Positions 154 through 56,142 of a DNA stretch of 64,000 nucleotides are shown here, piece by piece (position 1 is the stretch's first letter; every line of letters starts with the position of its first letter). A model generated the notes under the pieces. That model did not search any database. It was not told the DNA's origin and saw only the letters and a list, made by a program, of their open reading frames with translations. Source of the DNA: Desulfobacteraceae bacterium (lineage in GTDB: Bacteria; Desulfobacterota; Desulfobacteria; Desulfobacterales; SURF-7); the NCBI GenBank assembly GCA_003599865.1, contig QZKS01000054.1:1-64000 (forward strand), given 5' to 3'. A program made the position numbers and the translations under genes.

Positions 154-498
154 TTAGTCCTTGAAGTAATCCTCTTTGAAAAAATCATCATCCTCGCCGT
201 CTTCGTCATCATCCTCGTCATCATCCTCATATCCATAATCCAGATCAAGGACCTCATAGTCGGATACGGTAATATATTTAATACCGTCCTCTCCATCGAC
301 GCTGACGATACCGGTAACCTCGACATCTTCATCAATCAGGTTGGAGAGCTGCCTTCCGGCCTTATTTTGCGTCACATAATATTCATCGTCATCATCGGTT
401 GTGATCTTCACCCCCACGAAATCATCGTTATCGGTTTCAATTTCCGAAATATACCCCAGTATTGTAATTTCTTTCCCTGTTTTTTTTTTCGAAGCCAT
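154..498 (-). CDS. Small acidic protein with OB-like core, sigma-54 controlled
   Basis: This 114-residue protein has a lysine-rich N-terminus, a central beta-rich part (residues about 10-80, with the pattern G-Y-I-S-E ... Y-Y-V ... V-T-G-I-V ... Y-I-T-V) and a C-terminal tail made almost only of Asp and Glu. The core resembles the short OB-like proteins at 2852 and 47325, although similarity is weak. ATG 498 is chosen because GGAGG lies at 504-508, five bases upstream; the more upstream ATG at 516 has no such site. A -24/-12 promoter lies 68 bp upstream at 566-580. An acidic tail of this kind is common in nucleic-acid mimics and chaperone-like proteins, but no function can be assigned. Confidence 0.75.
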   Translation of the reverse strand: MASKKKTGKEITILGYISEIETDNDDFVGVKITTDDDDEYYVTQNKAGRQLSNLIDEDVEVTGIVSVDGEDGIKYITVSDYEVLDLDYGYEDDDEDDDEDGEDDDFFKEDYFKD

Positions 499-565
499 AC
501 TGTCCTCCATTTTCATATAATCAATTGACCAGGATCATCGACTGCAGACGTAACGGCGATTTTGT

Positions 566-580
566 GCAAGTAGCATGCCT
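566..580 (-). promoter_or_regulatory. Sigma-54 promoter of the acidic protein gene
   Basis: Read on the minus strand the site is AGGCAT-GCTAC-TTGC followed by A, against the consensus TGGCAC-N5-TTGC. The invariant GG and GC are exactly ten bases apart. It lies 68 bp upstream of the ATG at 498. Confidence 0.75.
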
Positions 581-778
581 TATCCATAGATGCTGCATCA
601 CATTGTCATTAAATGAAAATAAACATGGATACCGCAATTCTCATGACGCGGATTCTGTCTGGATTTTCCCAAAAGAATCCGACCCGGGAAACGTTCAAGT
701 AAATTGTTGCGAGAACTGGAAACGACAAAATATGAATTCCGGATTCCGGTTTTTAAAAATTTCAGAAATCTTGATTCT

Positions 779-2038
779 TCAAATCTGAACACCGAAATAT
801 TGAACGAGCATATAGTTCAAATTATTCCAGAGAACCGAGTAGGAATAATGACGGGTGGCAATTTGATAGTTTTTCTCAACCATGAGGGATCTTCGGTCCT
901 CGCACTCCAGAACATCCCGGGCCTTTTGAATGTTTTTTTTGGTGAGATATTGATCCATGACAATCAAGTCAAAACCCAATGGCTCGATATCGCGGACAAA
1001 AGTAGCATATCGATTGATCAGGATGGGCTTTTTAAAATAGATTGCCTCGAGAAAGGCATTGCCGAATCCTTCATAAAGACTGGGAAAGGTAATAAAATCG
1101 GCATGCGGATAAATATCCCACAGGGAAAACCGCCCCTCCCCGGGCTGGCGGTTGTTCCATGGATCTTCAAGCCGGGCATTGATCAGCCGCAGGTCAACCC
1201 CCTGATTCAATGCATTTTCCTGAATCCAGTCCTGATATTCAAAGCCCTCGTCCCCGGCTTCATGGGAGATGAAGAGCTTGTATTTGGGATTGCCTAGTTT
1301 TTTCACAAATTCGATGGCATGTTCGATTCCTTTCCGCTGTATGATCCGGGTGGGCTGAAGGATAATGACATCATCGGAAGAAAGTCCAATGGATTCGCGA
1401 AGCTTTGATGTTCTGGCCTGATTGATGGCAGGCGGATGTTCAAAGTCGAGAACATTGGGAATAATGATCGAGGCAATTCCCGTCCGAAGTGCCAACTCCT
1501 CCTGGGCTGATGAATTGATGACAACATGCTTCATTCCGTCCAGATTGGGCGGGAATGCCATCCGCAAATAGTCGCCCACGGCATTGATGATGAAACGGGT
1601 TCGTTCCCAATAAAAATCATGATGATGGGCAATCGTCGGAATCTGTGTTTCCGCAATGGTTTCCGTCAAGGCAATACCCAGCGGGATATGAAGAGGGATG
1701 GTCAGCACATTCTGCGCAATCAGGATATCAATGGAAAACTTCTCGATGAACAGCCGAAGATGGTTTTTCAAAAAATCCTTCATCCGGGTGATGTTTTGAG
1801 TCGTTTCCAGGTCCCTTCTTTTCGTACCGAAAATCTGCCTGTTCAGGGACTCGATTGGTTCGCTTTTAAAATGTGCTTCCGGGACAAGATAACTGTTTTC
1901 CGGTTTCCGATCCAGATCACCGGCAAACCAGTACACATCATGGTTGTGCTGCCTCAACACCTCGGCCCATTTACTGGCCTCGAGTGTAACACCGTCTGTC
2001 CCTGAAAAACGTGTGGATATAAAACCGATTTTTTTCAT
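779..2038 (-). CDS. Glycosyltransferase family 4 (GT-B) protein
   Basis: This 419-residue protein has the two-domain layout of GT4 retaining glycosyltransferases. The N-terminal Rossmann half opens with KKIGFISTRFSGTDGVTLEA, including the glycine-rich loop of sugar-nucleotide-dependent enzymes. The C-terminal half carries VIILQPTRIIQRKGIE and the family E-x7-E segment around FPSLYEGFGNAFLEA, where the nucleotide-sugar binds. No membrane segment is seen, so it should act in the cytoplasm. It stands alone, with the sigma-54 gene at 2295 diverging from its 5' side, and no sugar-pathway neighbour indicates donor or acceptor. The ribosome-binding site before the ATG is weak. Confidence 0.85.
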   Translation of the reverse strand: MKKIGFISTRFSGTDGVTLEASKWAEVLRQHNHDVYWFAGDLDRKPENSYLVPEAHFKSEPIESLNRQIFGTKRRDLETTQNITRMKDFLKNHLRLFIEKFSIDILIAQNVLTIPLHIPLGIALTETIAETQIPTIAHHHDFYWERTRFIINAVGDYLRMAFPPNLDGMKHVVINSSAQEELALRTGIASIIIPNVLDFEHPPAINQARTSKLRESIGLSSDDVIILQPTRIIQRKGIEHAIEFVKKLGNPKYKLFISHEAGDEGFEYQDWIQENALNQGVDLRLINARLEDPWNNRQPGEGRFSLWDIYPHADFITFPSLYEGFGNAFLEAIYFKKPILINRYATFVRDIEPLGFDLIVMDQYLTKKNIQKARDVLECEDRRSLMVEKNYQIATRHYSYSVLWNNLNYMLVQYFGVQI

Positions 2039-2238
2039 AAGCCATCAAAAAGTAATTTTTTCTGAACCATTGGATATTCGGATCTGCCGCACCCGGGATC
2101 ACCGGACATCTTTGTTCTTCCGATGCAGAACGTTTGTCTGATTCCATACCACATTATGGACCGGCAGGCAAATTACCTTGAGAAAAATAATCCGCCCGCA
2201 TGGCGTCGCTGCTCATAAAAATAGAGGCCGCCTGATTA

Positions 2239-2253
2239 TGGTACAAGGTTTGC
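2239..2253 (+). promoter_or_regulatory. Sigma-54 promoter of the zinc/HTH protein gene
   Basis: The sequence TGGTAC-AAGGT-TTGC followed by T matches TGGCAC-N5-TTGC with one change and the exact GG-N10-GC spacing. The expected transcription start is near 2265, which leaves room for the ATG at 2295 but hardly for the one at 2274. Confidence 0.75.
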
Positions 2254-2294
2254 TATCGCTTTGATAGATTTTAATGAAAAAAGAAAGCAACCAT

Positions 2295-2639
2295 ATGAAC
2301 CCTCCGTGCAGCCAATGTCAGCTCCAGTTCGAGAGCAAAAATAATGAAATCTGTAACAAGTGCCCTGCCCGATCCGACTGGTCAGACTATCAGGCCGGAT
2401 TTAAAAGCACTTTTAATACGCCGCCCGGACTTCCGATTCATGATAAAAGAGATCGCTATCAAATCATTGCCGAACTGCTGGACTATCCTTCCGAATCCAT
2501 GATGTGGAAAGATCTGTATGAAAAACAAAAATTATCCCTGGTTGAAATCCGGGACAAGATCGGAACCAATATTTATACCATCAAAAAACAGTTTCATAGG
2601 TGGGGGATACCGATACGAGGAGAAAAATCATCAGATTAA
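2295..2639 (+). CDS. Small protein with CxxC zinc site and HTH-like C-terminus
   Basis: The protein has 114 residues when started at ATG 2295. An in-frame ATG at 2274 would sit only about nine bases after the predicted sigma-54 start site, so the later start is preferred. Residues 5-24 hold CSQC and CNKC, twelve residues apart, a likely zinc ribbon. Residues about 85-110 read LSLVEIRDKIGTNIYTIKKQ and end in a W-G-I turn, as in small HTH domains that bind DNA. The layout suggests a DNA-binding regulator, which is inference. It is followed by an OB-like small gene with its own sigma-54 promoter. I do not recognise a named family. Confidence 0.7.
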   Translation: MNPPCSQCQLQFESKNNEICNKCPARSDWSDYQAGFKSTFNTPPGLPIHDKRDRYQIIAELLDYPSESMMWKDLYEKQKLSLVEIRDKIGTNIYTIKKQFHRWGIPIRGEKSSD

Positions 2640-2687
2640 ACATGCCGGCCGGGACAAAACAGGTTTCCGCTTTCGGCCGGGGAATAA

Positions 2688-2706
2688 TCGGAACATTCGA
2701 TTCCGG
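2688..2706. promoter_or_regulatory. Inverted repeat TCGGAAC-N5-ATTCCGG, candidate enhancer
   Basis: TCGGAAC and ATTCCGG flank five bases, so the arms CGGAA and TTCCG are perfectly inverted. It lies 86 bp upstream of the -24 element at 2793, a normal distance for a sigma-54 activator site. The same arrangement occurs at 3744-3762. Confidence 0.5.
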
Positions 2707-2792
2707 TTGAACCGGATGTTTTCAGCCTTTTGAGGACCGGATGGATATAACCAAAAGGCGGGCCCCTTCTTTGATATTAAATTCAAGTGATT

Positions 2793-2807
2793 TGGTATAC
2801 ATATTGC
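2793..2807 (+). promoter_or_regulatory. Sigma-54 promoter of the OB-like gene at 2852
   Basis: TGGTAT-ACATA-TTGC followed by T keeps the invariant GG and GC ten bases apart. The ATG of the downstream gene begins 45 bp after the -12 element. Confidence 0.78.
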
Positions 2808-2851
2808 TTTTCTGTTGACATTGAAACAACCATAAGAACGGGACTGGAAGA

Positions 2852-3106
2852 ATGCGAAGGAAAAATCTTATTGAGGGAGAAAAAGTCAGTCTTCAGGGAA
2901 TCATTATCCCTTCTGATTGGGATCAGACCGGAAAGGTGGTTGCCTATACCCTTTCAACATTTGATGAAAAAGAGTATCGCATCCACCCGAAAAGCAAAAA
3001 TCCGTCTGTTGAACAATTTATGGGAGAGAAAGTTTTTATCAACGGGATATTGCAAAAAAAGGAACACGACCACTATCTCTATGTGGACACCATCCGGCTG
3101 TTTTAA
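2852..3106 (+). CDS. Small OB-like protein, paralog of the protein at 47325
   Basis: This 84-residue protein begins MRRKNLIEGEKVSLQGIIIP. It has the pattern G-I-I-I-P-x3-W-D-x2-G-K ... T-x-D-E-K-E-Y-x-I-x6-K ... M-G-E-K-V-F-I-N-G-I-L, which closely matches the 93-residue protein at 47325 (G-I-V-I-P-E-T-W-N-D-A-G ... T-E-K-K-Y-L-V ... L-R-K-K-V-I-A-E-G). The alternating beta strands with G at turns suggest a five-stranded OB fold. Both genes have sigma-54 promoters. No catalytic motif or export signal is visible and the ligand is unknown. Confidence 0.8.
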   Translation: MRRKNLIEGEKVSLQGIIIPSDWDQTGKVVAYTLSTFDEKEYRIHPKSKNPSVEQFMGEKVFINGILQKKEHDHYLYVDTIRLF

Positions 3107-3235
3107 CAGGCGCCGGAATACCGCTGCAAGCGTTCATTTATAATCTTCAAAAAACCCGGAAAACAGATCTCGATCATCCGGAAGGAAAACCAACCCGGAA
3201 GCTTACAACCCATGACAGGGAATGCAATCAGCCCA

Positions 3236-3598
3236 TTATGTTCCAAAAATGCGTTCCCGTTTCTCCAGCTTTGTCTTGCATGTGATACATTGCGTTGCAA
3301 CCGGTCTCGCCAATAGTCTTTTATAGGAAATCTCCTCACCGCATACTTCACAATAGCCGAAATCACCATCTTCTATTCGTACCAGGGCATCCTTGATCTT
3401 ATTGATCAGGCGACTTTCCCGATTTTTTATGCGAAGCATGAAACCTTGATTCTCGTTCAAAGTAGCACGGTCAAGAGGATCAGCATAGTTATACTCTTCG
3501 TTCTTCAAGCCATTCAGGGTCATTTCTCCACTCTGGGCAAGCTCAATCAGTTGATCTTCCAATAGTTTCTTAAACATACGAATTTTTTCTTTTTCCAT
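3236..3598 (-). CDS. dksA: DksA/TraR family zinc-finger transcription factor
   Basis: This 120-residue protein has an N-terminal coiled coil and a C-terminal zinc finger, CEVC and CITC separated by 17 residues, typical of DksA, which binds in the secondary channel of RNA polymerase and acts with (p)ppGpp. It contains the acidic-tip segment ADPLDRA, matching the conserved coiled-coil tip of DksA (two Asp, Ala at the end). ATG 3598 is chosen for its GGGAG ribosome-binding site six bases upstream. At 120 residues it is shorter than E. coli DksA (151). A perfect-spacing sigma-54 promoter lies at 3646-3660, divergent from that of the HU gene, so this may be a specialised copy rather than the housekeeping one. 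Confidence 0.88.
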   Translation of the reverse strand: MEKEKIRMFKKLLEDQLIELAQSGEMTLNGLKNEEYNYADPLDRATLNENQGFMLRIKNRESRLINKIKDALVRIEDGDFGYCEVCGEEISYKRLLARPVATQCITCKTKLEKRERIFGT

Positions 3599-3645
3599 CG
3601 CAAACTCCCGCTCAAAACGTTGAATCCAAGTATAAAAGAAGTATA

Positions 3646-3660
3646 GCAAACCCTATGCCA
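3646..3660 (-). promoter_or_regulatory. Sigma-54 promoter of the dksA-like gene
   Basis: On the minus strand TGGCAT-AGGGT-TTGC followed by T differs from consensus at one base. It lies 48 bp upstream of the ATG at 3598. Confidence 0.82.
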
Positions 3661-3743
3661 CGAAGGTAATTATTTCGTTTTGCATCCATTCTGATTCCAT
3701 CTGTTATCAACTATATTTCAAACCAGTATGGACCCAATCGGAA

Positions 3744-3762
3744 TCGGAACTTACAATTCCGA
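3744..3762. promoter_or_regulatory. Inverted repeat TCGGAAC-N5-ATTCCGA between two divergent sigma-54 promoters
   Basis: The TCGGAAC and ATTCCGA arms lie inside a wider inverted repeat (ATCGGAAT at 3737-3744, ATTCCGAT at 3756-3763). It is 84 bp from the dksA-side promoter and 61 bp from the HU-side promoter, so one activator could serve both genes. The same motif occurs at 2688-2706, and its first 12 bases recur at 40620-40631. Confidence 0.5.
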
Positions 3763-3822
3763 TCTCAGGGTGTTGGTAAAAAATTTTATATTATATTTCA
3801 ACAAATTACCGTTATGAGTGCA

Positions 3823-3837
3823 AGGCATATTTCTTGC
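3823..3837 (+). promoter_or_regulatory. Sigma-54 promoter of the HU gene
   Basis: AGGCAT-ATTTC-TTGC followed by T has the required GG-N10-GC spacing. It lies about 170 bp upstream of the HU start codon, which would give a long leader. Confidence 0.68.
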
Positions 3838-4009
3838 TAAATCCATATCGGGTAATAACTCAAGCGACAAAATAAGGCCTTCAAGACATGATTGCAAGTA
3901 AAACCCGTAAAGAAAAAAAAATCCGGGGGTGGATCATACGGGCATCATTGATGTCCGAAGTTCATCAAAACAAACCAATGTAAATTGAATCCGTGAAAAG
4001 GAAAAAATC

Positions 4010-4279
4010 ATGAACAAAACCGATCTGATCGAAGAGGTTGAATCCGTTGTAGGAAGCAAAAAGGCTGCTTCTGATTGTATTGACAGCCTGATCAAAAACA
4101 TCACGACCGCACTGCAAAATGGTGAAGAAGTACGCCTGTCAAACTTTGGCATCTTTAAAGTCAGCAAACGCAAAGCCAGAACAGGTGTGAATCCGAGAAC
4201 AGGCGAAAAAATCAACATTCCGGCAAAAAAAGTGCCTGTATTTTCTCCTTCCAAAGGATTGAAAGAAGCGGTCAATTAA
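4010..4279 (+). CDS. HU-family nucleoid DNA-binding protein
   Basis: This 89-residue protein has the full HU fold. An N-terminal helical half opens MNKTDLIEEVESVVGSKKAA, and the beta-arm contains the family signature with N-P-R-T-G-E (residues about 62-67), where the proline intercalates into DNA. The length equals that of E. coli HU (90). It has an AAGGA ribosome-binding site and is followed by a strong hairpin at 4286-4328. HU proteins bend and compact DNA and commonly assist sigma-54 promoter looping. This copy itself appears to be sigma-54 controlled, which is unusual for HU and suggests a condition-specific copy. Confidence 0.92.
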   Translation: MNKTDLIEEVESVVGSKKAASDCIDSLIKNITTALQNGEEVRLSNFGIFKVSKRKARTGVNPRTGEKINIPAKKVPVFSPSKGLKEAVN

Positions 4280-4285
4280 AAACAT

Positions 4286-4328
4286 CCATCAAGGTGGGAA
4301 AAACGCCTTATCTTTCTCACCTTGATGG
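4286..4328. terminator. Terminator hairpin between convergent HU and secreted-protein genes
   Basis: An 11-bp perfect stem (ccatcaaggtg with caccttgatgg) encloses a 21-base loop that can extend the stem further. On the minus strand it is followed by ATGTTTTT; on the plus strand only A residues follow. It probably serves the leftward gene at 4354 best and also ends the HU transcript. Confidence 0.7.
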
Positions 4329-4353
4329 AAAAAAAACATTGGAAATGTGGATA

Positions 4354-4629
4354 CTATTCGCTCTTAACATCTTCCACTTCCCCATCCGGAGATATCGGCT
4401 CACCTTCTTCGGAATCGCCTCCGGTAACAATCTCTTCTTCATCCCCTGACATATCAATTGCTTCAGCATCCTCTTCGGCCGCATAGATTGAATCATTATC
4501 CGGTTCCGGTTCCGTGGTTTCCGTCGTTGCCGGCTGCTCTGCAGCCATCGCAATATTCTGAAAATCCCCACCTGTCACAACCGAAACAACCAACATGATG
4601 ATCATCATCAATACTGCTTGCTTTTTCAT
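4354..4629 (-). CDS. Small secreted acidic protein, sigma-54 controlled
   Basis: The 91-residue product starts MKKQAVLMMIIMLVVSVVTG, a clear signal peptide with a likely cleavage after AMA (residue about 30), followed by a low-complexity tail rich in Glu, Asp, Ser, Gly and Pro. ATG 4629 is chosen because GGGAG at 4636-4640 is then six bases away. No known domain is seen. It lies directly downstream of the sigma-54 activator at 4744 and has its own -24/-12 promoter at 4681-4695, so it is a plausible target of that activator. The acidic tail may bind cations, but that is a guess. Confidence 0.75.
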   Translation of the reverse strand: MKKQAVLMMIIMLVVSVVTGGDFQNIAMAAEQPATTETTEPEPDNDSIYAAEEDAEAIDMSGDEEEIVTGGDSEEGEPISPDGEVEDVKSE

Positions 4630-4680
4630 TGTCATCTCCCGTTTTTAAGATTTGTTGATCCGCGTCATGGTCATAATTTA

Positions 4681-4695
4681 GCAAATTCAATGCCG
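4681..4695 (-). promoter_or_regulatory. Sigma-54 promoter of the secreted acidic protein gene
   Basis: On the minus strand CGGCAT-TGAAT-TTGC followed by T keeps GG and GC ten bases apart. It lies 52 bp upstream of the ATG at 4629, in the gap after the activator gene. Confidence 0.75.
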
Positions 4696-4743: not shown

Positions 4744-6162
4744 CTATTTGAACTCAACCTTTTTGATTCCATATTTGGTGAGCAGCTTATGAAGCTGACG
4801 GGTGCTGATATCCGCGTCCCGGGCACTGGGAGCGATGCGCCCCTTGTTGATGCTCAGTATTTCCTTAAGATACTGCCTTTCGATGCTTTCAATTCCGGCA
4901 CGCCGGACTTCGGCAAGTGTCTTGGAGGCGCTCAGGTTGACCTGGGCGATCTGCGGCTGATTCTGAAAAAACTCCATCGGAAAACTTTCGGCTGTGAGTG
5001 TCGAGCTGGTTTCCAGGATGTGGGCCCTTTCGATCAGATTTTCCAATTCCCGGATATTGCCCGGCCATTCATAAGCATGCAGCGCTTCCAGAACCACCGG
5101 ATGAACGCCGCTGATCTGCTTGGCATGAAAAAGGTTCAGCTGCCGGATAAACTGCGAAACCAGTTCCGGAATATCCTCCTTCCGGTCTCTGAGGGGCGGC
5201 AACTCAATCGGAAATACATTCAAGCGGTAATACAGATCTTTCCGGAATTCCCCGGATTCCGCCATTTCCTGCAAATCACAATTGGATGCGGCAATAAAAC
5301 GGGCATCGGTTTCGATATTGACCTCACCACCCACAGGCTGAAAGGTTCTATCCTGCAAAACTTGGAGAAGCTTGATTTGAGTGGAGGAGGTAATCGTGTT
5401 GATTTCATCCAGAAAAATGGTTCCTTCCTTGGCAATTTCAAATTTTCCCAGCTTCCTTTTCACCGCACCGGTAAACGCGCCCTTCTCATGACCAAACAGC
5501 TCGCTTTCGATCAGGGTATCCGGGATCGCGCCGCAATGAACGCCGATGAACTGATTGCCTTTCCGGTTGCTGTGGGCATGGATCAATCTGGCCATCACTC
5601 CCTTGCCGGTACCGGTTTCTCCCAGAAGCAAAACCGTTGTTTTGGTCGGCGCAACCGAACGGATTTTTTTGAGCACTTCCTTCATCTTGGGACTGTTTGT
5701 TTTCACAATCTCCAAAAAATCCGTATCCCAGAACTGATCCCGCAGATAATCAAGCTCCTCCTGGGTGATAATATCATCCTGAATTTTTTTCGTAACCAGC
5801 CGGACCTCCTCGATATCGATCGGTGAGGTCACATAATTGCTGGCACCCGCCTTAACCGCATTGACCGCTTTTCGGATCGATGCCTGAGGGCTGATGATAA
5901 TGATTTCGGTGGTTGGGAAAATCTGGAGATACGGTGCCAGTATATTGATATAGGGATTGTCGTTGGAATGGGACGGGATACCCGCGGATATGAGATCAAT
6001 GTCTAAAAAAACAAATTCATGCCGTTTTTTCTGAAAAAGTTCAAAACAGTCTTTTTCCGCGTTTGCAACCATGACATCAAACCGATGCCCCAGGCATTCC
6101 TGAACGGCGGCCGCGGTTTGTTCACTTCCGGTTGCGATTAAAACAGACTTTCTGATTTTCAT
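4744..6162 (-). CDS. Sigma-54 activator with degenerate receiver domain (paralog of 47774)
   Basis: This 472-residue protein has a receiver-like domain (about 1-125), an AAA+ domain with Walker A GETGTGKG, the sigma-54 contact loop GAFTGA and Walker B IFLDEI, and a C-terminal HTH (residues 450-472 end, ADISTRQLHKLLTKYG). The receiver keeps Asp54 (VFLDID) but lacks the acidic pair after beta-1 (it reads VLIATGS) and the beta-5 lysine (it reads YVTSPID), so normal phosphorylation chemistry is doubtful. ATG 6162 is chosen because that residue starts the receiver fold; upstream codons are unlike any domain. No histidine kinase is adjacent. Its closest relative in the window is at 47774. Tandem palindromic repeats lie just upstream of the start. 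Confidence 0.9.
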   Translation of the reverse strand: MKIRKSVLIATGSEQTAAAVQECLGHRFDVMVANAEKDCFELFQKKRHEFVFLDIDLISAGIPSHSNDNPYINILAPYLQIFPTTEIIIISPQASIRKAVNAVKAGASNYVTSPIDIEEVRLVTKKIQDDIITQEELDYLRDQFWDTDFLEIVKTNSPKMKEVLKKIRSVAPTKTTVLLLGETGTGKGVMARLIHAHSNRKGNQFIGVHCGAIPDTLIESELFGHEKGAFTGAVKRKLGKFEIAKEGTIFLDEINTITSSTQIKLLQVLQDRTFQPVGGEVNIETDARFIAASNCDLQEMAESGEFRKDLYYRLNVFPIELPPLRDRKEDIPELVSQFIRQLNLFHAKQISGVHPVVLEALHAYEWPGNIRELENLIERAHILETSSTLTAESFPMEFFQNQPQIAQVNLSASKTLAEVRRAGIESIERQYLKEILSINKGRIAPSARDADISTRQLHKLLTKYGIKKVEFK

Positions 6163-6328: not shown

Positions 6329-7507
6329 TTAAAGGATGGTTTCGGTCCAGGGCAATCCATGCCGGTTCAGGGCGTCCATAAACGGCTCCGGATCAAACTC
6401 CTCCATATTGAACACACCATGGCCGCGCCATTTTCCGGTCAGCATCATCATGGCGCCGATCATGGCCGGAACCCCCGTGGTGTAAGAAACGGCCTGGGAT
6501 TGAACTTCTTGATAGGTCTGTTCATGGTCGCAGATATTATACACATAGTATTTCTTTTCGCGGCCCTCTTTCAGCCCCTTGATCAGACAACCAATACAGG
6601 TCCGTCCTTTGGTCACGGGACCCAGGGATGCCGGATCCGGAAGAAGGGCCTTTAAAAACTGAAGGGGAACGATCTCCTGCCCGTTATAGACAACCGGATC
6701 GATCCGCGTCATGCCGACGTTTTGAAGCACTTCCAGATGTTTCAGATAGTTATCACTGAAGGTCATCCAGAATCGTGCCCGGTTGACGCCGGGAATGTGC
6801 CGGATCAGGGACTCGAGCTCTTCATGGTATAACAGATAGATTTTGCGGGGTCCGATCCCTTCCGGAAAATCAAATGTTTTGGATATGGATAAGGGGTCGG
6901 TTTCAATCCACTTTCCGGATTCATAATACCTGCCCTTGGCCGTCACTTCACGAATGTTGATTTCCGGATTGAAATTGGTCGCGAACGGATGCCCATGATC
7001 TCCGGCGTTGCAATCAATGATATCGATTTCCCGAATCGTATCAAAGTGCTTCTTCCGGGCCCAGGCGCAGAAAACATTGGTGACGCCGGGATCAAAACCG
7101 CTTCCCAGAAGGGCCATGATTCCGCGTTTTTTAAAACGATCGTGATAGTCCCACTGCCACTGATAACAGAACCGGGCCTCATCCCGGGGTTCATAATTGG
7201 CGGTATCCAGATAATCCACACCGGTTGCAAGGCAGGCATCCATAATATGAAGATCCTGGTACGGGAGCGCGACATTGATCAGCACATCCGGTTTGAACGT
7301 TTCAATCAGTGAGACCAGTTCCGGAACATTGTCGGCATCCACCTGTGCGGTCCGTATCTTTCGTGGAAGCATTTCAGCAATACGGTTGCATTTTTCCAGT
7401 GTTCGGCTGGCAAGGCAGATCTCGCTGAAAACTTCCGGCAGTTTGGCGCACTTGAAGGCAACAACCTGCCCTACGCCTCCGGCTCCTATGATTAAAACCT
7501 TTCCCAT
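6329..7507 (-). CDS. Carboxynorspermidine/carboxyspermidine dehydrogenase (saccharopine dehydrogenase family)
   Basis: This 392-residue protein has an N-terminal NAD(P)-binding Rossmann fold (GKVLIIGAGGVGQVVAFK) and the saccharopine dehydrogenase C-terminal domain. Motifs such as YLDTANYEPRDEA and LGSGFDPGVTNVFCAWA match the carboxynorspermidine dehydrogenase branch, which joins aspartate semialdehyde to putrescine or diaminopropane in the alternative spermidine route. ATG 7507 is chosen for GGAGG eight bases upstream. It lies 14 bp after the speA stop, so the two are one operon for arginine-to-polyamine synthesis. The partner decarboxylase and the agmatine-processing enzymes are not in the window. 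Confidence 0.87.
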   Translation of the reverse strand: MGKVLIIGAGGVGQVVAFKCAKLPEVFSEICLASRTLEKCNRIAEMLPRKIRTAQVDADNVPELVSLIETFKPDVLINVALPYQDLHIMDACLATGVDYLDTANYEPRDEARFCYQWQWDYHDRFKKRGIMALLGSGFDPGVTNVFCAWARKKHFDTIREIDIIDCNAGDHGHPFATNFNPEINIREVTAKGRYYESGKWIETDPLSISKTFDFPEGIGPRKIYLLYHEELESLIRHIPGVNRARFWMTFSDNYLKHLEVLQNVGMTRIDPVVYNGQEIVPLQFLKALLPDPASLGPVTKGRTCIGCLIKGLKEGREKKYYVYNICDHEQTYQEVQSQAVSYTTGVPAMIGAMMMLTGKWRGHGVFNMEEFDPEPFMDALNRHGLPWTETIL

Positions 7508-7521
7508 CGTTTTATCCTCCA

Positions 7522-9447
7522 CTATCGTTCATAATAGGAGTAACCCCTTAGTCCGGAACGAAACGCCTTCATGATCTTCTGTCTTTCCTTCGGGGTTATC
7601 AATTTATTACGAATGGCGTTCTCCGCCAGTTCCCGGAAATCCGAATACATTGTCTTAACATCGTATTCCACGTAAGACAATATTTCCTCCACCGAATCGC
7701 CCTCAATCTCCTTGATCAGTTCATAATCACCGTCTTCGGTGATCTGCACACTGACGATATTGGTATCCCCCAGAAGATTATGCAGATCTCCCAATGTCTC
7801 CTGATAGGCTCCCACCAGAAAAATTCCCAGATAATACTCTTCCGTGTCATTGATCTCATGAAGCGCAAGGGTATCTTTTACATCGTGCTGATCAATGAAT
7901 TTATCAATCTTTCCATCGCAATCACAAGTGATATCCGCAAGAATCACATTGCGGGTCGGCTCTTCCTTCAGTCTGTGAATCGGCAGAATCGGGAACAGGT
8001 GTCCGATAGCCCAGGAATCCGGCAGCGACTGAAACACGCTGAAATTTCCATAATAAATATCCGCCAGGGCCGACTCAATCCCTTCCAGTTCATTGGGAAT
8101 CTGCTTCAGCTTTTTCATATCCTGCGTGATTTTATGAATAATGTGCCAGAAAATATTATCCCCCATGGCCCGTTCCCGGAGTGAAATATTGCCATGCTTG
8201 AACAGCTGCCGCAGTTCATCCCGATAATAGAGTGCATCATTGTAGCACTCCTGCAGGTTTTTCATATTGATGGATTGTTTTACATCCCACAGATTGATGA
8301 TCATCTCATGGGTTTCTTCTGCGAGAATTTCAGGAATCGGATAGGTTTCAAACCGGCTCACATCCAGAATATTAAACAGGAGCACGGAATAATAGGCAAC
8401 CGTTGCCCGGCCGGACTCTGTAACGATCACCGGATGGGGGATGGCCTTTTCATCCAGCGTACTCATGATGACCTCGATGATATCCGAGCAGTACTCCTTC
8501 ATGGTATAATTCCGGCTGCTGATGAAATTGGTATGGGAGCCGTCATAATCAACCGCCAGTCCGCCTCCCAGATCAAGGTATCCCATGGGCGCACCTTCTT
8601 CCACAAGTCCCTCGTATACCCTGCAGGCTTCGGTAACGGCAAACCGGATATCCCGGATATTGGGAATCTGCGACCCCAGATGATAATGCAAAAGCTGAAA
8701 CGAATCCAGCATCTTTTTTTGTTTCAGTGTTTCCACGACATCCAGAATCTGGGTGATGCTGAGTCCGAAAATACTCCTGTCTCCACTGGACTCACTCCAG
8801 TGACCGCCTGCGCGGGTGCTGATTTTGATCCGAACACCGATCTTCGGCTTGATCTCGAGAGCCTCCGCTCTTTCCAGGATCAGTTGAAGCTCGCTGGGCA
8901 TTTCAATGACAAAAAAACAGTTGTATCCCATCTTGCACGCATACAGTCCCAGGTCCACAAATTCCTCATCCTTATAGCCGTTGCAGATCAGACAGGCCTC
9001 CGGATCTCTCAGCAGCGATATGGCGGCAATGAGCTCCGCCTTGCTTCCTGCTTCCAGTCCATGGTGAAAACGGGAACCGAAGTGGGTTACCTCTTCCACA
9101 ACCTGCTGCTGCTGGTTCACCTTAATCGGGTAAACCCCTCTGTATTTATTCTGGTATCCCAGCTCTTCAATCGTATCCTGGAAGTATTTGTGAAGGAAGG
9201 TAATCTGCGACTGAAGAATATCCCGGAACCGGAGAAGGATCGGCATCCCCATTCCCCTGTCTTTGATATCCGAGACAATCTTCATCAGACTGACAGCGTT
9301 TTTATCTCCCATTTTCCCGGACGGATTGACGACAACCTCTCCCTGATCAGAGATATCAAAATAACCGGCACCCCAATTATGCACCCCATAGAGATCCACG
9401 GCATTTTCAATGGACCACCTTTCCAGAGAACCGCTTTTGTTCATCAT
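7522..9447 (-). CDS. speA: Biosynthetic arginine decarboxylase
   Basis: This 641-residue PLP enzyme of the alanine-racemase-fold family turns arginine into agmatine. The PLP lysine is Lys109 in VYPIKVNQQ, the phosphate-binding glycine cluster is YLDLGGGLAVDYDG, and the C-terminal active-site cysteine motif is ITCDCDGKID. The length fits bacterial SpeA (about 630-660). It is followed 14 bp later by the carboxynorspermidine dehydrogenase gene. A perfect hairpin without a T run separates it from the exported phosphodiesterase gene upstream. Confidence 0.95.
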   Translation of the reverse strand: MMNKSGSLERWSIENAVDLYGVHNWGAGYFDISDQGEVVVNPSGKMGDKNAVSLMKIVSDIKDRGMGMPILLRFRDILQSQITFLHKYFQDTIEELGYQNKYRGVYPIKVNQQQQVVEEVTHFGSRFHHGLEAGSKAELIAAISLLRDPEACLICNGYKDEEFVDLGLYACKMGYNCFFVIEMPSELQLILERAEALEIKPKIGVRIKISTRAGGHWSESSGDRSIFGLSITQILDVVETLKQKKMLDSFQLLHYHLGSQIPNIRDIRFAVTEACRVYEGLVEEGAPMGYLDLGGGLAVDYDGSHTNFISSRNYTMKEYCSDIIEVIMSTLDEKAIPHPVIVTESGRATVAYYSVLLFNILDVSRFETYPIPEILAEETHEMIINLWDVKQSINMKNLQECYNDALYYRDELRQLFKHGNISLRERAMGDNIFWHIIHKITQDMKKLKQIPNELEGIESALADIYYGNFSVFQSLPDSWAIGHLFPILPIHRLKEEPTRNVILADITCDCDGKIDKFIDQHDVKDTLALHEINDTEEYYLGIFLVGAYQETLGDLHNLLGDTNIVSVQITEDGDYELIKEIEGDSVEEILSYVEYDVKTMYSDFRELAENAIRNKLITPKERQKIMKAFRSGLRGYSYYER

Positions 9448-28590: not shown

Positions 28591-29514
<924 letters not shown>

Positions 29515-33027: not shown

Positions 33028-33471
<444 letters not shown>

Positions 33472-38789: not shown

Positions 38790-40409
38790 TCAATATGGTT
38801 CCTCCATATCCGGAACCGATCCTTTAACATTTTTTTGGGGTATTTCCGTGATCATTGCCTCTGTTGTGAGCATCAGCCCGGCTACGGAAGCGGCATTCTG
38901 AAGGGCAAAACGAACCACTTTTGTCGGATCGATCACACCCGAACCCAGCAGGTTTTCATACGCCAGTGTTTCCGCATTGAAGCCGAAATCATCCCGGCCC
39001 TCCAATACATGGTTCAGAACGACCGAACCATCGAGTCCGGCATTGATGGCAATCTGCCGCAACGGCTCGACCAGGGCGCGTTTCAAAATCCTGACCCCGT
39101 TTTCTTCATCCTTCTCCAGTTTCAAATTCCCAAGAGCGGATAGACAGCGAACCAGCGCAACGCCTCCGCCGGGAACAATACCTTCCTCCACCGCAGCACG
39201 GGTCGCATTCAATGCGTCTTCCACACGGGCTTTTCTTTCTTTCATCTCTGTATCGGTTGCTGCCCCGACTTTCAGAACGGCAACACCGCCCGTAAGCTTG
39301 GCGACTCTTTCCTGCAGTTTTTCCCGCTCATAATCGGTTACGCTTTTCTCGGTCAGTACCCGAAGCTGCCGAACACGATCGGCAATCGCGTCTTTTTTAC
39401 CCTCACCACCGACAATCGTGGTATTGTCCTTATCGATAATGACGCTCCTGCAGATGCCCAGATCCTGGATGGAAACCTTATCCAGCTTTACCCCCAGATC
39501 CTTGGATAACAGCTTGCCGCCGCAGAGTATCGCAATATCCTCCAGCAGGGCTTTCCGCCGGTCGCCAAATCCGGGCGCTTTTACCGCCGCGACCTTCAAC
39601 GTGCCGCGCAGCTTGTTGACAATCAGTGTTGCCAGGGCATCCCCTTCCACATCTTCGGCAATGACCAGCAGCGATTTTCCCGACCGGGCCACCGCTTCCA
39701 GGATCGGAAGAACATCATTCGTATTTTTGATCTTTTTTTCATGAATCAGCACAACCGTATTTTGCAGCCGCACCTCCATCTTTCCGGTATCGGTGACAAA
39801 GTAGGGTGAAATATAACCACGGTCAAACTGCATGCCTTCCACAAACGACATGGACGTATCCATGGATCTTCCTTCCTCGACGGTAATAACCCCTTCTTTA
39901 CCGACCTTGTCCATGGCATCGGCGATCAACCTCCCAATGGCACGGTCATTATTGGCGGATACGGTTCCGACCTGAATGATCTCCGATTGATCCGCAACCG
40001 GTTTTGAAATCTGTTTCAGTTTTTCCACCACCGCAGCAACTCCGGCATCAATACCCCGTTTCAGCGCAATGGGTGCCAAGCCGGACATAACAAGCTTCAG
40101 CCCTTCGCTGTAAACGGACTGGGCAAGAACGGTTGCCGTGGTCGTCCCATCTCCGGCCGTGTCGTTGGTTTTGCCGGCCACTTCCCTGACCATCAGGGCT
40201 CCCATGTTTTCAAATTTATCCTCCAGACTGATCTCTTTGGCTACGGTAACCCCATCTTTGGTGATAATGGGGAGCCCCCAGGATTTCTCAATAATGACAT
40301 TTCTTCCACGGGGTCCCAAGGTCACCTTAACGGCATTGGCCAGGTGATTGACCCCCTGAAGCATTTTCGATCTGGCTTCATGGCTGTATTGGATCATTTT
40401 TGCTGCCAT
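38790..40409 (-). CDS. groEL: Chaperonin GroEL, additional copy without GroES and without GGM tail
   Basis: The 539-residue protein has the ATP site with [12 protein letters not shown] and [15 protein letters not shown] (catalytic Asp), and the usual apical and equatorial domains. It ends [14 protein letters not shown], without the Gly-Gly-Met repeats that line the cavity floor in housekeeping GroEL. No groES lies nearby. ATG 40409 gives the standard N-terminus MAAK. A good -24/-12 promoter lies 69 bp upstream and no CIRCE repeat was found, so this copy seems to be controlled by sigma-54, not by HrcA. It may serve special clients. Confidence 0.93.
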
Positions 40410-40477
40410 TTTCATTTTCTCCCTTGACATACTGAACCATTTCGAAAATAACTTCAATACACTTTATCTATAGTAGA

Positions 40478-40492
40478 GCAACAAGAATGCCA
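40478..40492 (-). promoter_or_regulatory. Sigma-54 promoter of groEL
   Basis: On the minus strand TGGCAT-TCTTG-TTGC followed by T differs from the consensus by one base. The 12-base string TCGGAACTTACA, also present in the dksA/HU enhancer candidate, lies at 40620-40631, 128 bp upstream. Confidence 0.8.
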
Positions 40493-45908: not shown

Positions 45909-46814
45909 TCACCAGTGCGGCTGGTTTCCGATACGTTTTCCCATGACTTCCAATGTATCACTGACCACGAGAAATGCCAGAGGATCGATCTTGCGGACAA
46001 GATCCTTGAGGCGTGAAAGTTCCTGGAAAGCGATGATCGTATACAGGATGTTTTCCCGTTTGCCGGAAAAACCGCCTTCCCCGTGAATGACGGTGATCCC
46101 GCGGTTCAGACTGTTCATGATCTCACCGGATATTTCCTTCCATTTTGATGAAATGATCAATACCGATTTCCGCTGGCTCAAACCCGTAACCACAAGATTT
46201 AAAATATTTGAACTCACAAACAGAAAAATAAGCGCATAGAGTGCCGACTCCAAAGAAATCATCACCGCTGCAATACCCAGCAGGATGACATTAAAAGCAA
46301 GCACCGTTGTCCCCAGCTTGACGGAGAACCGCTTCATCATGATAATGGAAAGAATATCGGTTCCGCCGGATGATCCGTATGACCGGAGAATACAACCGGA
46401 ACCGCCGCCGAATATAATGCCTGCAAGAAGTGAGCTGAGAATCGGCTCCTGCAGGAGCAAGGGCCGGATCGGGATGGACAGGGCCAGGGTAAAAATGATC
46501 AGCCCGACCACACTGTAAATAAAAAACCGTTTCCCCACATACAGCCAGCCCAGCAGAAACAGCGGAATATTTAACAACAGATAGATGGAGCTTACGGACA
46601 AGCCGCTAAAAAAATAGGAAATCAGAATCGCCATGCCGGTAACACCGCTGCTGATGAAATTTTGAGGGATCAGAATACCATTCACCGACACCGCACACAG
46701 AACGCTCCCCGCGGTGATCAAGGACAGGTTTATGCCGATTGTGGCAAGCAGCCGGACCAATGGCTTCTTCCGGCCGGACTCGACGGCTCCCCTATTTTGA
46801 TCCGCTTTCAACAC
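45909..46814 (-). CDS. YitT-family membrane protein with DUF2179 domain
   Basis: The 301-residue protein has five to six membrane segments (the first at INLSLITAGSVLCAVSVNGI), GSSGGTDILSIIM typical of YitT, and a C-terminal cytoplasmic DUF2179 domain (GITVIHGEGGFSGKRENILY). The start is placed at GTG 46814, seven bases after GGGAG; the more upstream TTG has no such site. YitT proteins are widespread and poorly understood. It is the first gene of the operon leading to the diadenylate cyclase. Confidence 0.85.
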   Translation of the reverse strand: MLKADQNRGAVESGRKKPLVRLLATIGINLSLITAGSVLCAVSVNGILIPQNFISSGVTGMAILISYFFSGLSVSSIYLLLNIPLFLLGWLYVGKRFFIYSVVGLIIFTLALSIPIRPLLLQEPILSSLLAGIIFGGGSGCILRSYGSSGGTDILSIIMMKRFSVKLGTTVLAFNVILLGIAAVMISLESALYALIFLFVSSNILNLVVTGLSQRKSVLIISSKWKEISGEIMNSLNRGITVIHGEGGFSGKRENILYTIIAFQELSRLKDLVRKIDPLAFLVVSDTLEVMGKRIGNQPHW

Positions 46815-47247
46815 GGAAAGGCTCCCTTGGGTTCGATTGACGGAACAATGACGCTGAATCAAAAGAATGCATCAACAACTCGAAAGCAGCACACCCCACA
46901 AGAAACAACACTAAGATGGCGTGAATTTCATCTCGCGGCCTGCCTGAATGCTGACTCCAATATCATTTTTCACGAATCAAAGCAATTGGAATACCAAAAT
47001 CATTTTCCCTGAAAACACGGAATTCAATGGCTCATCAGACCTGCTTGAGACATTCTGCTTCCGATTTCTGTTCCTTACCTCTGTCTGCAAAATCATGTTG
47101 AAAAACCGCCCGTATCCGCCCATGCTCCGGCATACAATTAAAATGGCATATAATATTAAACCGTTATAACAATGCGCTGCGCGGCTGCCGGACAGGCGGG
47201 AATGGCGGAACCGTTGATCGCCGCAACCGGAAAAGGGCTACCGGCTG
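46815..47247. other. Gene-free gap between divergent yitT and OB-like genes
   Basis: Nothing coding is supported in this stretch; short open frames lack ribosome-binding sites and family features. It ends at the sigma-54 promoter of the OB-like gene. No clear enhancer palindrome was found. Confidence 0.4.
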
Positions 47248-47262
47248 TGGCATGCCGATTGC
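47248..47262 (+). promoter_or_regulatory. Sigma-54 promoter of the OB-like gene at 47325
   Basis: TGGCAT-GCCGA-TTGC followed by A differs from consensus by one base and is spaced correctly. It lies 62 bp upstream of the ATG at 47325. Confidence 0.8.
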
Positions 47263-47324
47263 AAAAGTCTTTTCGGACTGTTACTGAATTCAATCAAACG
47301 GAACAATATCAGATATCCAGCCAA

Positions 47325-47606
47325 ATGAAGAAAAAGAAAAAAATAACCATCCGCGGAATCGTGATCCCTGAAACCTGGAATGACGCCGGAGAAATCAGCA
47401 CGCTCTCCATTGTCACGTATACGGAGAAAAAATATCTGGTTGTGGAGAACAAAGAGGCAAAAAAATTAAAAGGGTTTTTACGAAAAAAGGTGATCGCGGA
47501 AGGAATGATGACGGAAAACGGTGAACAGAAGAATATTGTTATTGAACGGTTTGAACGGGATGAATTCAAACCGGATGGTTCCGCACAACAGCCCGCCGTC
47601 AAATAG
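47325..47606 (+). CDS. Small OB-like protein, paralog of the protein at 2852
   Basis: The 93-residue protein starts MKKKKKITIRGIVIPETWND and matches the 84-residue protein at 2852 along its length (G-I-V-I-P-x3-W-x-x-x-G, T-E-K-K-Y-L-V, L-R-K-K-V-I-A-E-G), with an extra tail after residue 80. The ATG at 47325 has no clear ribosome-binding site but upstream codons do not resemble the family. It has a sigma-54 promoter and lies 167 bp before a sigma-54 activator gene. The function is unknown; nucleic-acid or ligand binding is suggested by the OB-like pattern. Confidence 0.78.
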   Translation: MKKKKKITIRGIVIPETWNDAGEISTLSIVTYTEKKYLVVENKEAKKLKGFLRKKVIAEGMMTENGEQKNIVIERFERDEFKPDGSAQQPAVK

Positions 47607-47773: not shown

Positions 47774-49177
47774 ATGAACCGAGTGCTTATCATATCAGGC
47801 AATACGGAAATTATTTCCACCATCCAGAGCGTGCTCTCCGAAGAATTCGAAGTTGAAAATTCCGATTCCATCCGACAGGCCCTTGAAATCCATACCAACA
47901 GGCCGTTTGATCTGATTTTTATCGATCTTCAGGAATTTAAAAATGCCAACGGGGAGGCGCCCCTCCACGACGTGATGATCGATTTTCAGGATGCCAATCC
48001 CATGATCGAGTATGCGGTTCTGACATCACAATCCGCCATTCGGGAAGCATTTAAAGCGGTAAAGGCAGGTGCCGGCGATTATATCACCTATCCCCTTGAC
48101 CCCGAAGAAATCCGGCTGGTGGTTACGGCCTTTAAAGAAGCCTATGCCAGGGATCATGAATTGACATATCTGCGGAATCGTTTCTGGAAAACCGAATGGA
48201 TTGATGTGATTCACACGCGAAACCCTCACATGATGAATATTTATGAAACCATCCGGTCTGTGGCACCGACAATTGCCAACATATTGCTGCTCGGTGAAAC
48301 AGGGACGGGAAAAGGGCTTCTGGCCCGCCTGATCCATATCCACAGCAACCGGAATGACAAACCCTTTCTCTCCGTTCATTGCGGCGCCATACCGGACACG
48401 CTGCTGGAAAGCGAACTGTTCGGACATGAAAAAGGCGCATTTACCGGTGCCGTACGAAGAAAAGCCGGCAAGTTCGAGATCGCGGACGGCGGAACCATCT
48501 TTCTGGATGAAATCGGTACCATTTCCTCATCCGCCCAGGTGAAGCTTTTACAGGTACTTCAGGACAAGACATTCAGCCGTGTCGGGGGCGAAGAACCCCT
48601 GAAAGCGGATGTCCGTATTATTGCCGCCACCAATGCGGATCTGAAAGAACTTGCCGCACAGGGCCGGTTCCGAAAAGATCTCTACTACCGGCTGAATGTA
48701 TTTCCGATTGTCATTCCGCCTCTCCGGCAGCGTGTTGAGGATATTCCGCACATGGTTGAAGTTTTTCTGAAAAAACTCAACCAGCAGTATGGCAAGAACA
48801 TTCAAAAACTCCATCCCAAGGTCATCGAAGCATTGAAACGATATGAATGGCCGGGCAATATCCGGGAACTGGAAAATGTTCTGGAGCGCTCCTATATCCT
48901 GGAAAAAAATGGTACGCTGATGCCCCCGAGCTTTCCGTTGGAGATCATGTCTCCTGATTTTATCAGTGCCTTTCTGCAGGAGCCCGGCGGGCCGCTATCC
49001 CTGAATGAGGCAAGACGACTGGCACTGGAGGATTTCGAACAGCTTTACGTCAAAAACCTGATCGCCCGCAACAAAGGCAAGATCAATCTGTCGGCAAAAG
49101 AGGCCCAAATCACCCCGCGCCAGCTGAACAGGCTCATGTCCCGCTACAGAATTAAAAAATCCGAATATCGATCCTGA
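47774..49177 (+). CDS. Sigma-54 activator with degenerate receiver domain (paralog of 4744)
   Basis: The 467-residue protein has the same layout as the activator at 4744: receiver-like domain (1-125), AAA+ domain with GETGTGKG, GAFTGA and IFLDEIG, and a C-terminal HTH (EAQITPRQLNRLMSRYRIKK). Asp51 (IFIDLQ) is present, but the acidic pair after beta-1 is missing (VLIISGN) and the beta-5 Lys is replaced (YITYPLD), as in its paralog. A segment of about 20 residues is inserted before beta-4. No kinase gene is nearby. Its position beside a sigma-54-controlled OB-like gene suggests it controls that gene. Confidence 0.9.
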   Translation: MNRVLIISGNTEIISTIQSVLSEEFEVENSDSIRQALEIHTNRPFDLIFIDLQEFKNANGEAPLHDVMIDFQDANPMIEYAVLTSQSAIREAFKAVKAGAGDYITYPLDPEEIRLVVTAFKEAYARDHELTYLRNRFWKTEWIDVIHTRNPHMMNIYETIRSVAPTIANILLLGETGTGKGLLARLIHIHSNRNDKPFLSVHCGAIPDTLLESELFGHEKGAFTGAVRRKAGKFEIADGGTIFLDEIGTISSSAQVKLLQVLQDKTFSRVGGEEPLKADVRIIAATNADLKELAAQGRFRKDLYYRLNVFPIVIPPLRQRVEDIPHMVEVFLKKLNQQYGKNIQKLHPKVIEALKRYEWPGNIRELENVLERSYILEKNGTLMPPSFPLEIMSPDFISAFLQEPGGPLSLNEARRLALEDFEQLYVKNLIARNKGKINLSAKEAQITPRQLNRLMSRYRIKKSEYRS

Positions 49178-55529: not shown

Positions 55530-56084
55530 TTACAGATAAATGCTTTTCAATTGATCCAGCAGGCCATGCAGCTCCTCATGCCTGCCGGCACCGATCTTCT
55601 CAATCTCCAATTTCTGAAATGCCTTGTACAACTGTGATTGCTTATCAAATGAAAGGTTTGCTTCCGCAATGGGAAACAGAACCGTGTCTTCTTTTTCAAT
55701 ATGCGCTCTCAAAAGAGAAATATAGTTTGCGGCACTTTGATCGATCCGACCAACGGAATCCGGATTGCCTTTTTTCAACTGATCCAATCCTGCCTGCAAT
55801 TCCCGGATATATCCTCTGCCCTCATCGTGTTCCGCCAGCATGACGCCGATGGGTCCGCCATGTTTGCTGACGCCTATTTTCATCAGGGCCGGGAACAGCA
55901 GATCCTCTTCCTTTCCATGATGGCACTTGTCCACAAAAATTTTAAAAAATTCGACCAGCCGGCCCAGGTGTTCGACAACCTGCCCTTCCGGCACTTCCTT
56001 GATCCGATGAATCATCCGCTCCAATATGGATAATGTCATCAGGATGGCCTGGTGCTCATTTCTGAGTTCATTGATTGCGTCCAT
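55530..56084 (-). CDS. Hemerythrin-like (HHE) protein
   Basis: The 184-residue four-helix protein has the HHE iron-ligand motifs: NEHQAI near the start, KCHHGKEEDLLFP in helix 2-3, LAEHDEGR in the middle and AHIEKEDTVLFP in helix 4. Relatives bind O2 or NO or repair nitrosylated iron-sulfur clusters. It is the first gene after the sigma-54 promoter at 56128 and precedes fprA. AAAGGAG precedes the ATG. Confidence 0.88.
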   Translation of the reverse strand: MDAINELRNEHQAILMTLSILERMIHRIKEVPEGQVVEHLGRLVEFFKIFVDKCHHGKEEDLLFPALMKIGVSKHGGPIGVMLAEHDEGRGYIRELQAGLDQLKKGNPDSVGRIDQSAANYISLLRAHIEKEDTVLFPIAEANLSFDKQSQLYKAFQKLEIEKIGAGRHEELHGLLDQLKSIYL

Positions 56085-56127
56085 GATATTTTCTCCTTTC
56101 CATGAATAATCTTTTATTTTCTATATG

Positions 56128-56142
56128 GCAAGGGTTGTGCCA
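56128..56142 (-). promoter_or_regulatory. Sigma-54 promoter of the hemerythrin-fprA operon
   Basis: On the minus strand TGGCAC-AACCC-TTGC is an exact consensus match. It lies 44 bp upstream of the hemerythrin ATG. Confidence 0.92.

Follow-up and report, generated by a model that had tools for sequence, protein, structure and literature searches.

The closest described relatives of the locus reported here are the regulons of sigma-54 and its enhancer-binding proteins in Desulfovibrio vulgaris (Kazakov 2015, PMC4641369), a member of the same broad bacterial group, in which an activator, a palindromic upstream site and a -24/-12 promoter are combined. The same logic is found in a 64,000-nucleotide stretch of the genome of a sulfate-reducer-like bacterium of the Desulfobacteraceae (contig QZKS01000054.1, positions 1 to 64,000; hereafter the window), where six sigma-54-type promoters lie within 4.1 kb beside the gene of a sigma-54 activator. 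The D. vulgaris study differs in that its main text holds no dksA, HU, nucleoid or OB-fold term, and the only entry under 'general stress', DVU3305, belongs to the two-component regulators and has a GAFSGA motif and other targets (PMC4641369). Work on the RpoN regulon of Geobacter sulfurreducens treats DksA with guanosine tetraphosphate (ppGpp) as favouring RpoN promoters, but dksA itself (GSU3206) has an RpoD promoter in that organism (Leang 2009, PMC2725144). Promoters of the DmpR/Po type are alike in their upstream activator sites, IHF bend and dependence on DksA and ppGpp, although the helpers are not described there as activator targets (PMC7142073), whereas here dksA and hu appear to be.

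Systems of this kind, in which an activator serves a sigma-54 regulon, are known. The regulon described here appears to be new, together with its site and targets, and open-access full text (subscription papers and supplements lying outside the scope of the search) yielded no description of the module. We consider it likely that the cluster forms the centre of a sigma-54 regulon that is conserved and hitherto undescribed, with a dedicated activator, a palindromic site, OB-fold, DksA and HU targets and a stress-type feed-forward output. It would provide this regulon, conserved over much of a mostly anaerobic phylum in which general stress control is poorly known, with a named activator, a probable DNA site and a set of targets. 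The regulons of sigma-S and general stress have similar kinds of target, namely nucleoid proteins, chaperones and compatible solutes; they differ in that no RpoS match above cut-off was found in the host genome, where sigma-54 and a dedicated activator would be used instead. The elements on which this reading is based are as follows (HTH, helix-turn-helix).

565-580, minus strand: sigma-54 -24/-12 element of the acidic OB gene, AGGCATGCTACTTGCA, 49 bp to the start codon
2239-2254, plus strand: sigma-54 element of the zinc/HTH gene, TGGTACAAGGTTTGCT; no palindrome found upstream
2688-2706: activator-type palindrome of the OB promoter, TCGGAACATTCGATTCCGG, 86 bp upstream; perfect TCGGAAT-N5-ATTCCGA in the three congeners (G001 to G003)
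2793-2808, plus strand: sigma-54 element of the OB gene, TGGTATACATATTGCT
3645-3660, minus strand: sigma-54 element of dksA, TGGCATAGGGTTTGCT, 47 bp to the start codon
3744-3762: activator-type palindrome common to the divergent dksA and hu promoters, TCGGAACTTACAATTCCGA, 83 bp from dksA and 60 bp from hu
3823-3838, plus strand: sigma-54 element of hu, AGGCATATTTCTTGCT
4680-4695, minus strand: sigma-54 element of the acidic secreted gene, CGGCATTGAATTTGCT; no palindrome found
4744-6162, minus strand: sigma-54 activator with pseudo-receiver, GAFTGA AAA+ domain and HTH (PF00158, 222 bits), the proposed master activator

The initial annotation had reported six -24/-12 elements with exact GG-N10-GC spacing, and all six are present with that spacing and are intergenic. 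The start codon lies about 41-49 bp from five of them (measured to the second ATG for the zinc/HTH gene), the exception being hu, where a leader of 172 bp separates element and gene. The form common to the six, GGYAYN5TTGCW, was used as the strict sigma-54 pattern and is derived from those sites themselves. It has 10 matches in the window, six of them in the 4.1-kb cluster below position 4744; with the spacer shifted to 0-4 or 6-11 there are 0-2 in the window and none in the cluster. The 5.0-Mb host genome has 121 matches, against 44 for the reversed pattern, so that 0.10 would be expected per 4.1 kb and the Poisson probability of at least six is 1.3e-9, or about 3e-6 after genome-wide correction. 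The six sites score 13.5-16.3 bits with a position matrix that approximates the published sigma-54 consensus. The host genome has one match to Sigma54_DBD, the rpoN gene, at 214.9 bits. A loose consensus allowing three mismatches is not enriched in the window (252 matches against 276 expected), and for this reason only the strict form is informative. This lack of enrichment is the point in favour of the strict matches being chance, or some other conserved motif; such an explanation is extremely improbable in view of the spacing-specific enrichment, the start-codon distances, the footprints, and the linkage to activator and palindrome across families.

Three congeners were compared (G001, G002 and G003; loci L032, L033 and L034), whose proteins are about 73-92% identical to those of the window while the intergenic DNA has strongly diverged. 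Conserved blocks stand out ahead of the acidic OB gene in G001 and G002 (AGGCATRYTACTTGCA) and, wherever the congener contig reaches, ahead of the zinc/HTH gene (TGGTAYAAGGTTTGCT) and the OB gene (TGGTATANWTATTGCT). The hu element is retained in G002, where hu is retained, and has decayed in G001 (GGCAGATTTCTTGCC) and G003 (AGATATATTTCTTGCC), both of which lack hu at that place. The acidic secreted gene (4354-4635) and its site were seen only in the window and not in the three congeners. Conservation of the elements in relatives had been proposed earlier as a check, and five of the six are kept in at least one congener, the sixth belonging to the window-only gene.

It could be argued that the sigma-54 sites are real but that strong sigma-70 promoters serve dksA and hu as well, in which case the sigma-54 input is minor and there is no switch. 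In Geobacter, the mapped start of dksA is of the RpoD type (PMC2725144), and the 172-bp hu leader has room for a further promoter. Against this, the dksA element is identical in all four genomes of the genus, at 46-47 bp from the start codon, and the host genome has another dksA, 50% identical, on contig C2, which makes this one a second copy. We regard this explanation as unlikely. The earlier remark that DksA is usually a housekeeping protein does not apply here, because the gene in the cluster is this second copy.

The palindrome TCGGAAY-N5-RTTCCGA upstream of these sigma-54 sites was found twice independently, as a footprint in the genus and by counting dyads in other families. The congener alignment gives TCGGAAT-N5-ATTCCGA at two places, ahead of the OB promoter and in the stretch that separates dksA from hu, and CGGAAY-N5 was among the commonest dyads in a de novo count upstream of sigma-54 sites in other families. 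Of 87 upstream regions, at two mismatches or fewer, 44 have it at spacer 5 and 0-3 at each of the spacers 1-4 and 6-10; outside the order, 6 of 17 regions have the palindrome at spacer 5. Distances from palindrome to promoter recur at about 52, 83, 150-155 and 180-185 bp, and the copies are frequently paired at 31 bp from each other. Helical phasing of these distances gave a weak vector (0.28 at best), and nothing is therefore claimed beyond their recurrence. A reversed-pattern control for the palindrome alone (172 against 31 at one mismatch) was discarded, since the host genome is rich in the words CGGAA and TTCCG and the comparison misleads; spacer-shift controls and a scan for a composite element were used instead.

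The proximal composite was defined as GGAAYN5RTTCC-N50..110-GGYAYN5TTGCW and the distal form by a gap of 140-200 bp, and 146 genomes were scanned. The proximal form was found at 33 sites in 25 genomes and the distal form at 29 sites in 22 genomes, with one match each in the reversed control; several matches are intragenic and presumably due to chance. The host genome has exactly three proximal matches, all in the cluster (OB, dksA and HU), and its nine other exact palindromes have no convincing sigma-54 site nearby. The genes behind the composite mostly encode OB proteins, followed by HU, DksA, YitT, acidic secreted proteins analogous to that of the window, GroES, ClpX and a lysine-2,3-aminomutase-type enzyme; if up to three mismatches are allowed in the palindrome, GroEL, Hsp20 and a Usp protein are added behind sigma-54 sites in relatives. 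The activator is found in 17 of the 25 genomes with the proximal composite and in 41 of all 146, an enrichment with a Fisher P of 5e-6.

Searches with the pseudo-receiver and with two OB proteins in 146 genomes of the order, and with DksA in 59 relatives, were made separately and converge on the same loci. Within 6 kb of 45 activator loci there is an OB gene at 39, DksA at 19, HU at 11, the glycosyltransferase at 8 and YitT at 5. These rates are inflated, because loci were partly chosen for nearby OB matches, and the OB figure is not an unbiased rate. Since a genome of 4-5 Mb has about two DksA genes, adjacency of DksA by chance would be expected at less than 1%. A strict sigma-54 site lies within 250 bp upstream of 25 of 54 OB genes outside the genus, and of none of the 54 at any of ten other spacings; the same test was positive for 8 of 260 other genes and for none of 39 activator genes, so the activator gene is apparently not itself under sigma-54 control. 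The initial annotation had placed dksA and hu together behind sigma-54-type promoters next to an activator, an association that the relatives conserve.

The core of OB gene and activator also occurs in other orders of the phylum, and the activator subfamily in 17 of 148 sampled genomes. Among the matches listed in a contig profile scan with the activator alignment, in which the Walker-A pattern proved too widespread, the only clear module loci were L181, L182 and L183. The last of these is the best locus in a named isolate, Desulfospira joergensenii DSM 10085 (Desulfobacterales), where OB gene, activator, sigma-54 site and DksA stand together and the palindrome is weak, with three mismatches. 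L181 (QQUM01000172.1) is binned as Calditrichaeota and has a 44%-identical activator with two OB genes, which would reflect either transfer or misbinning. Small unannotated proteins also recur behind sigma-54 sites near the module (L157, L172, L285 and L283), for example a 115-residue MSWKFWKKE-type protein and a 134-residue protein, both without a Pfam match.

The activator itself has the features of a bacterial enhancer-binding protein, with the GAFTGA motif (34 of 40 members of the subfamily) and a conserved C-terminal HTH; further hallmarks are the linker ELDYLRDxFW and the helix STRQLHKLLxKYGI. Its receiver had been described as degenerate, and the comparison bears this out. The first Asp of the acid pocket is absent from all 40 members and an acidic residue (Asp or Glu) occupies the second position in only 4, while Lys109 is lost from all 40, with Tyr in its place in 25. 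The phospho-Asp is retained in 37, but with acid pocket and Lys lost the protein does not qualify as an NtrC-type two-component response regulator, and because the acid pocket is lost it is probably not an ordinary two-component regulator. The PEP-CTERM response regulator PrsR (TIGR02915) is among the two best-scoring NCBIfam models for the protein and was rejected at 347.8 bits against a cut-off of 502.6; the pseudo-receiver and the neighbouring genes differ as well.

In the palindrome promoters of relatives, the IHF consensus WATCARN4TTR is found 5-6 bp ahead of the sigma-54 16-mer, with an exact match in 21 of 90, compared with 1 of 45 promoters without the palindrome and about one in shuffled sequence. 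Acidic-tail OB genes on contigs without the activator (L281, L282 and L303; genomes G034 and G095) keep palindrome, IHF consensus and sigma-54 site in fixed order.

The genes of the cluster are listed below.

154-516, minus strand: small OB-family protein of 120 residues with acidic C-terminal tail, placed in the family by alignment; its homologues adjoin the activator in other families
779-2038, minus strand: GT4 glycosyltransferase resembling mannosylglucosylglycerate synthase (243 bits, cut-off 640)
2274-2639, plus strand: small CxxC zinc-type/HTH-like protein of 121 residues, with paired CxxC motifs and a C terminus that resembles an HTH; not seen outside the genus
2852-3106, plus strand: small OB-fold protein of 84 residues (AlphaFold2 and Foldseek)
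3236-3598, minus strand: DksA paralogue of 120 residues (TIGR02420, 124.6 bits against a cut-off of 115.5)
4010-4279, plus strand: HU/IHF-family DNA-binding protein of 89 residues (PF00216, Bac_DNA_binding, 110.5 bits over residues 1-89; IHF and HU matches in the PDB)
4354-4635, minus strand: acidic protein of 93 residues with signal-like N terminus

The protein encoded at 2852-3106 is predicted by AlphaFold2 (mean pLDDT 88) as a five-stranded fold with a short helix, a topology that agrees with the OB fold, a five-stranded barrel with a helix between strands 3 and 4. Its best Foldseek matches are mostly OB folds (RPA, YgiW and SSB), at E 0.002-0.06; it has no Pfam match, to BOF (the YgiW family) or otherwise, and the likeness to YgiW is structural only. 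The acidic protein at 154-516 belongs to the same family, as does one encoded at 47325-47606; 154-516 itself matched no Pfam family above cut-off, with only a sub-threshold DUF5818. The DPLDRA tip of the DksA paralogue aligns with DPVDRA of E. coli DksA (1tjl), and all four zinc-binding cysteines are present; a DksA of about 50% similarity is present in nearly all members of the order searched. The HU-family protein falls below the curated cut-offs for IHF alpha and beta proper (82.3 of 111 and 72 of 115 bits). An orthologue of the glycosyltransferase adjoins the activator in several relatives.

The sites, their spacing and conservation, their linkage and the degenerate receiver are established from sequence, and a mechanism may be proposed on this basis. 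The activator 4744-6162 would bind TCGGAAY-N5-RTTCCGA upstream of the -24/-12 promoters and drive the sigma-54 polymerase. Its targets here would be the OB-fold protein, the second DksA and the HU-family protein, probably with the acidic OB protein, while the zinc/HTH and acidic secreted genes may be under this activator or a different one. DksA with ppGpp and IHF-type bending of DNA are known to assist sigma-54 transcription (PMC7142073, PMC7962754, PMC2725144), and because of this the switch would probably reinforce itself, with polymerase moved from sigma-70 to sigma-54 and the promoter DNA bent. If the feed-forward does operate, general transcription and nucleoid factors that usually modulate sigma-54 would themselves be under its control. 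The output may be a stress or growth-arrest programme, as suggested by the target list in relatives and the missing RpoS match: the genes here encode factors of nucleoid and polymerase, to which relatives add chaperonins, Hsp20, ClpX, Usp and perhaps an enzyme for a compatible solute. The initial annotation had suggested a global response, for example to starvation. For a stress or starvation response the composite before GroES, ClpX and the aminomutase-type gene, and the palindrome-like sequence before GroEL, Hsp20 and Usp, give circumstantial support; nothing ties the module to the surface or biofilm state that the annotation named as the alternative. The further proposal, of a global stress or growth-arrest switch of the Desulfobacterota in which a non-phosphorylatable activator would turn on dedicated copies of DksA and an HU/IHF-type bender, both favouring sigma-54 transcription, so that the change in polymerase use and chromosome structure reinforces itself and fills the place of sigma-S, is put forward only tentatively and with more doubt than belief.

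Several points weigh against a single regulon with such an output. Only some of the loci have DksA or HU, the constant core being OB gene and activator, and the choice of those loci was partly guided by OB matches. Each stress gene was found in a single relative or a few, the window's own promoters show no recognisable IHF site where one would be expected, and HU may be an ordinary nucleoid protein that takes no part in their activity. The zinc/HTH (2239) and acidic secreted (4680) promoters have no palindrome within three mismatches, and the acidic OB promoter (565) has only a weak match, 150 bp away. The earlier claim of joint sigma-54 control of all six genes is thus upheld by the palindrome at the OB, dksA and hu promoters, weakly so at that of the acidic OB gene, and not at the other two.

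These last observations fit an explanation in which the six promoters are genuine and belong to two or more sigma-54 regulons, with 4744 running OB, dksA and hu, another activator such as 47774 running the zinc/HTH, acidic OB and acidic secreted genes, and the close packing being partly historical. We give this nearly an even chance. The restriction of the proximal composite to three promoters of the host genome is in keeping with it, and so is the presence in the window of a second activator of the same subfamily, which had been named alongside 4744 in the initial annotation. On the other side, OB and acidic secreted genes do lie behind the palindrome in relatives, and activators can also act from nearby downstream or diverged sites. 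Next to the second activator are a further OB gene and a YitT gene, both with a sigma-54 site upstream.

45909-46862, minus strand: YitT membrane protein, behind the sigma-54 element 46981-46996 (minus strand)
47325-47606, plus strand: second small OB-family protein, behind the sigma-54 element 47248-47263 (plus strand)
47774-49177, plus strand: second pseudo-receiver activator, 49% identical to 4744-6162

YitT genes are module members in relatives too. The activator at 47774 belongs to the same subfamily as that at 4744, but the palindrome was not found within three mismatches at these two neighbouring promoters (47248 and 46981).

The palindrome is absent at the same threshold from the promoters of nifH, P-II, the chaperonin and the hemerythrin gene of the window, which bears on whether the module serves nitrogen limitation. 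The nifH (28591-29469) and P-II (33028-33366) genes are also behind sigma-54 sites, some 25-30 kb away from the cluster. The nifH promoter has a TGT/ACA-type dyad instead, and the composite targets of relatives include stress genes and none recognised as nif. A nitrogen regulon was rejected as the main explanation because the nif-side promoters, including that of the chaperonin, lack the palindrome, and a role in nitrogen limitation appears quite improbable. A regulon run by the activator at 4744 through the palindrome is preferred.

Some other genes of the window may be mentioned. The nif-type neighbourhood contains a Cpn60/GroEL-family gene (38790-40430, minus strand) with a sigma-54 element at 40477-40492, 47 bp upstream, an arrangement reminiscent of nif-linked groEL copies. 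The hemerythrin-domain protein (55530-56084, minus strand) has a strong sigma-54 element at 56127-56142, 43 bp upstream, and lies opposite another sigma-54 activator gene (56243-57796). Upstream of the activator gene of the cluster and on the same strand, 6329-9447 (minus strand) encodes an arginine decarboxylase that passes the TIGR01273 cut-off and an enzyme that resembles carboxynorspermidine synthase but stays below cut-off; such a pair also flanks the module in G024 (L142), which hints at a link with polyamines.

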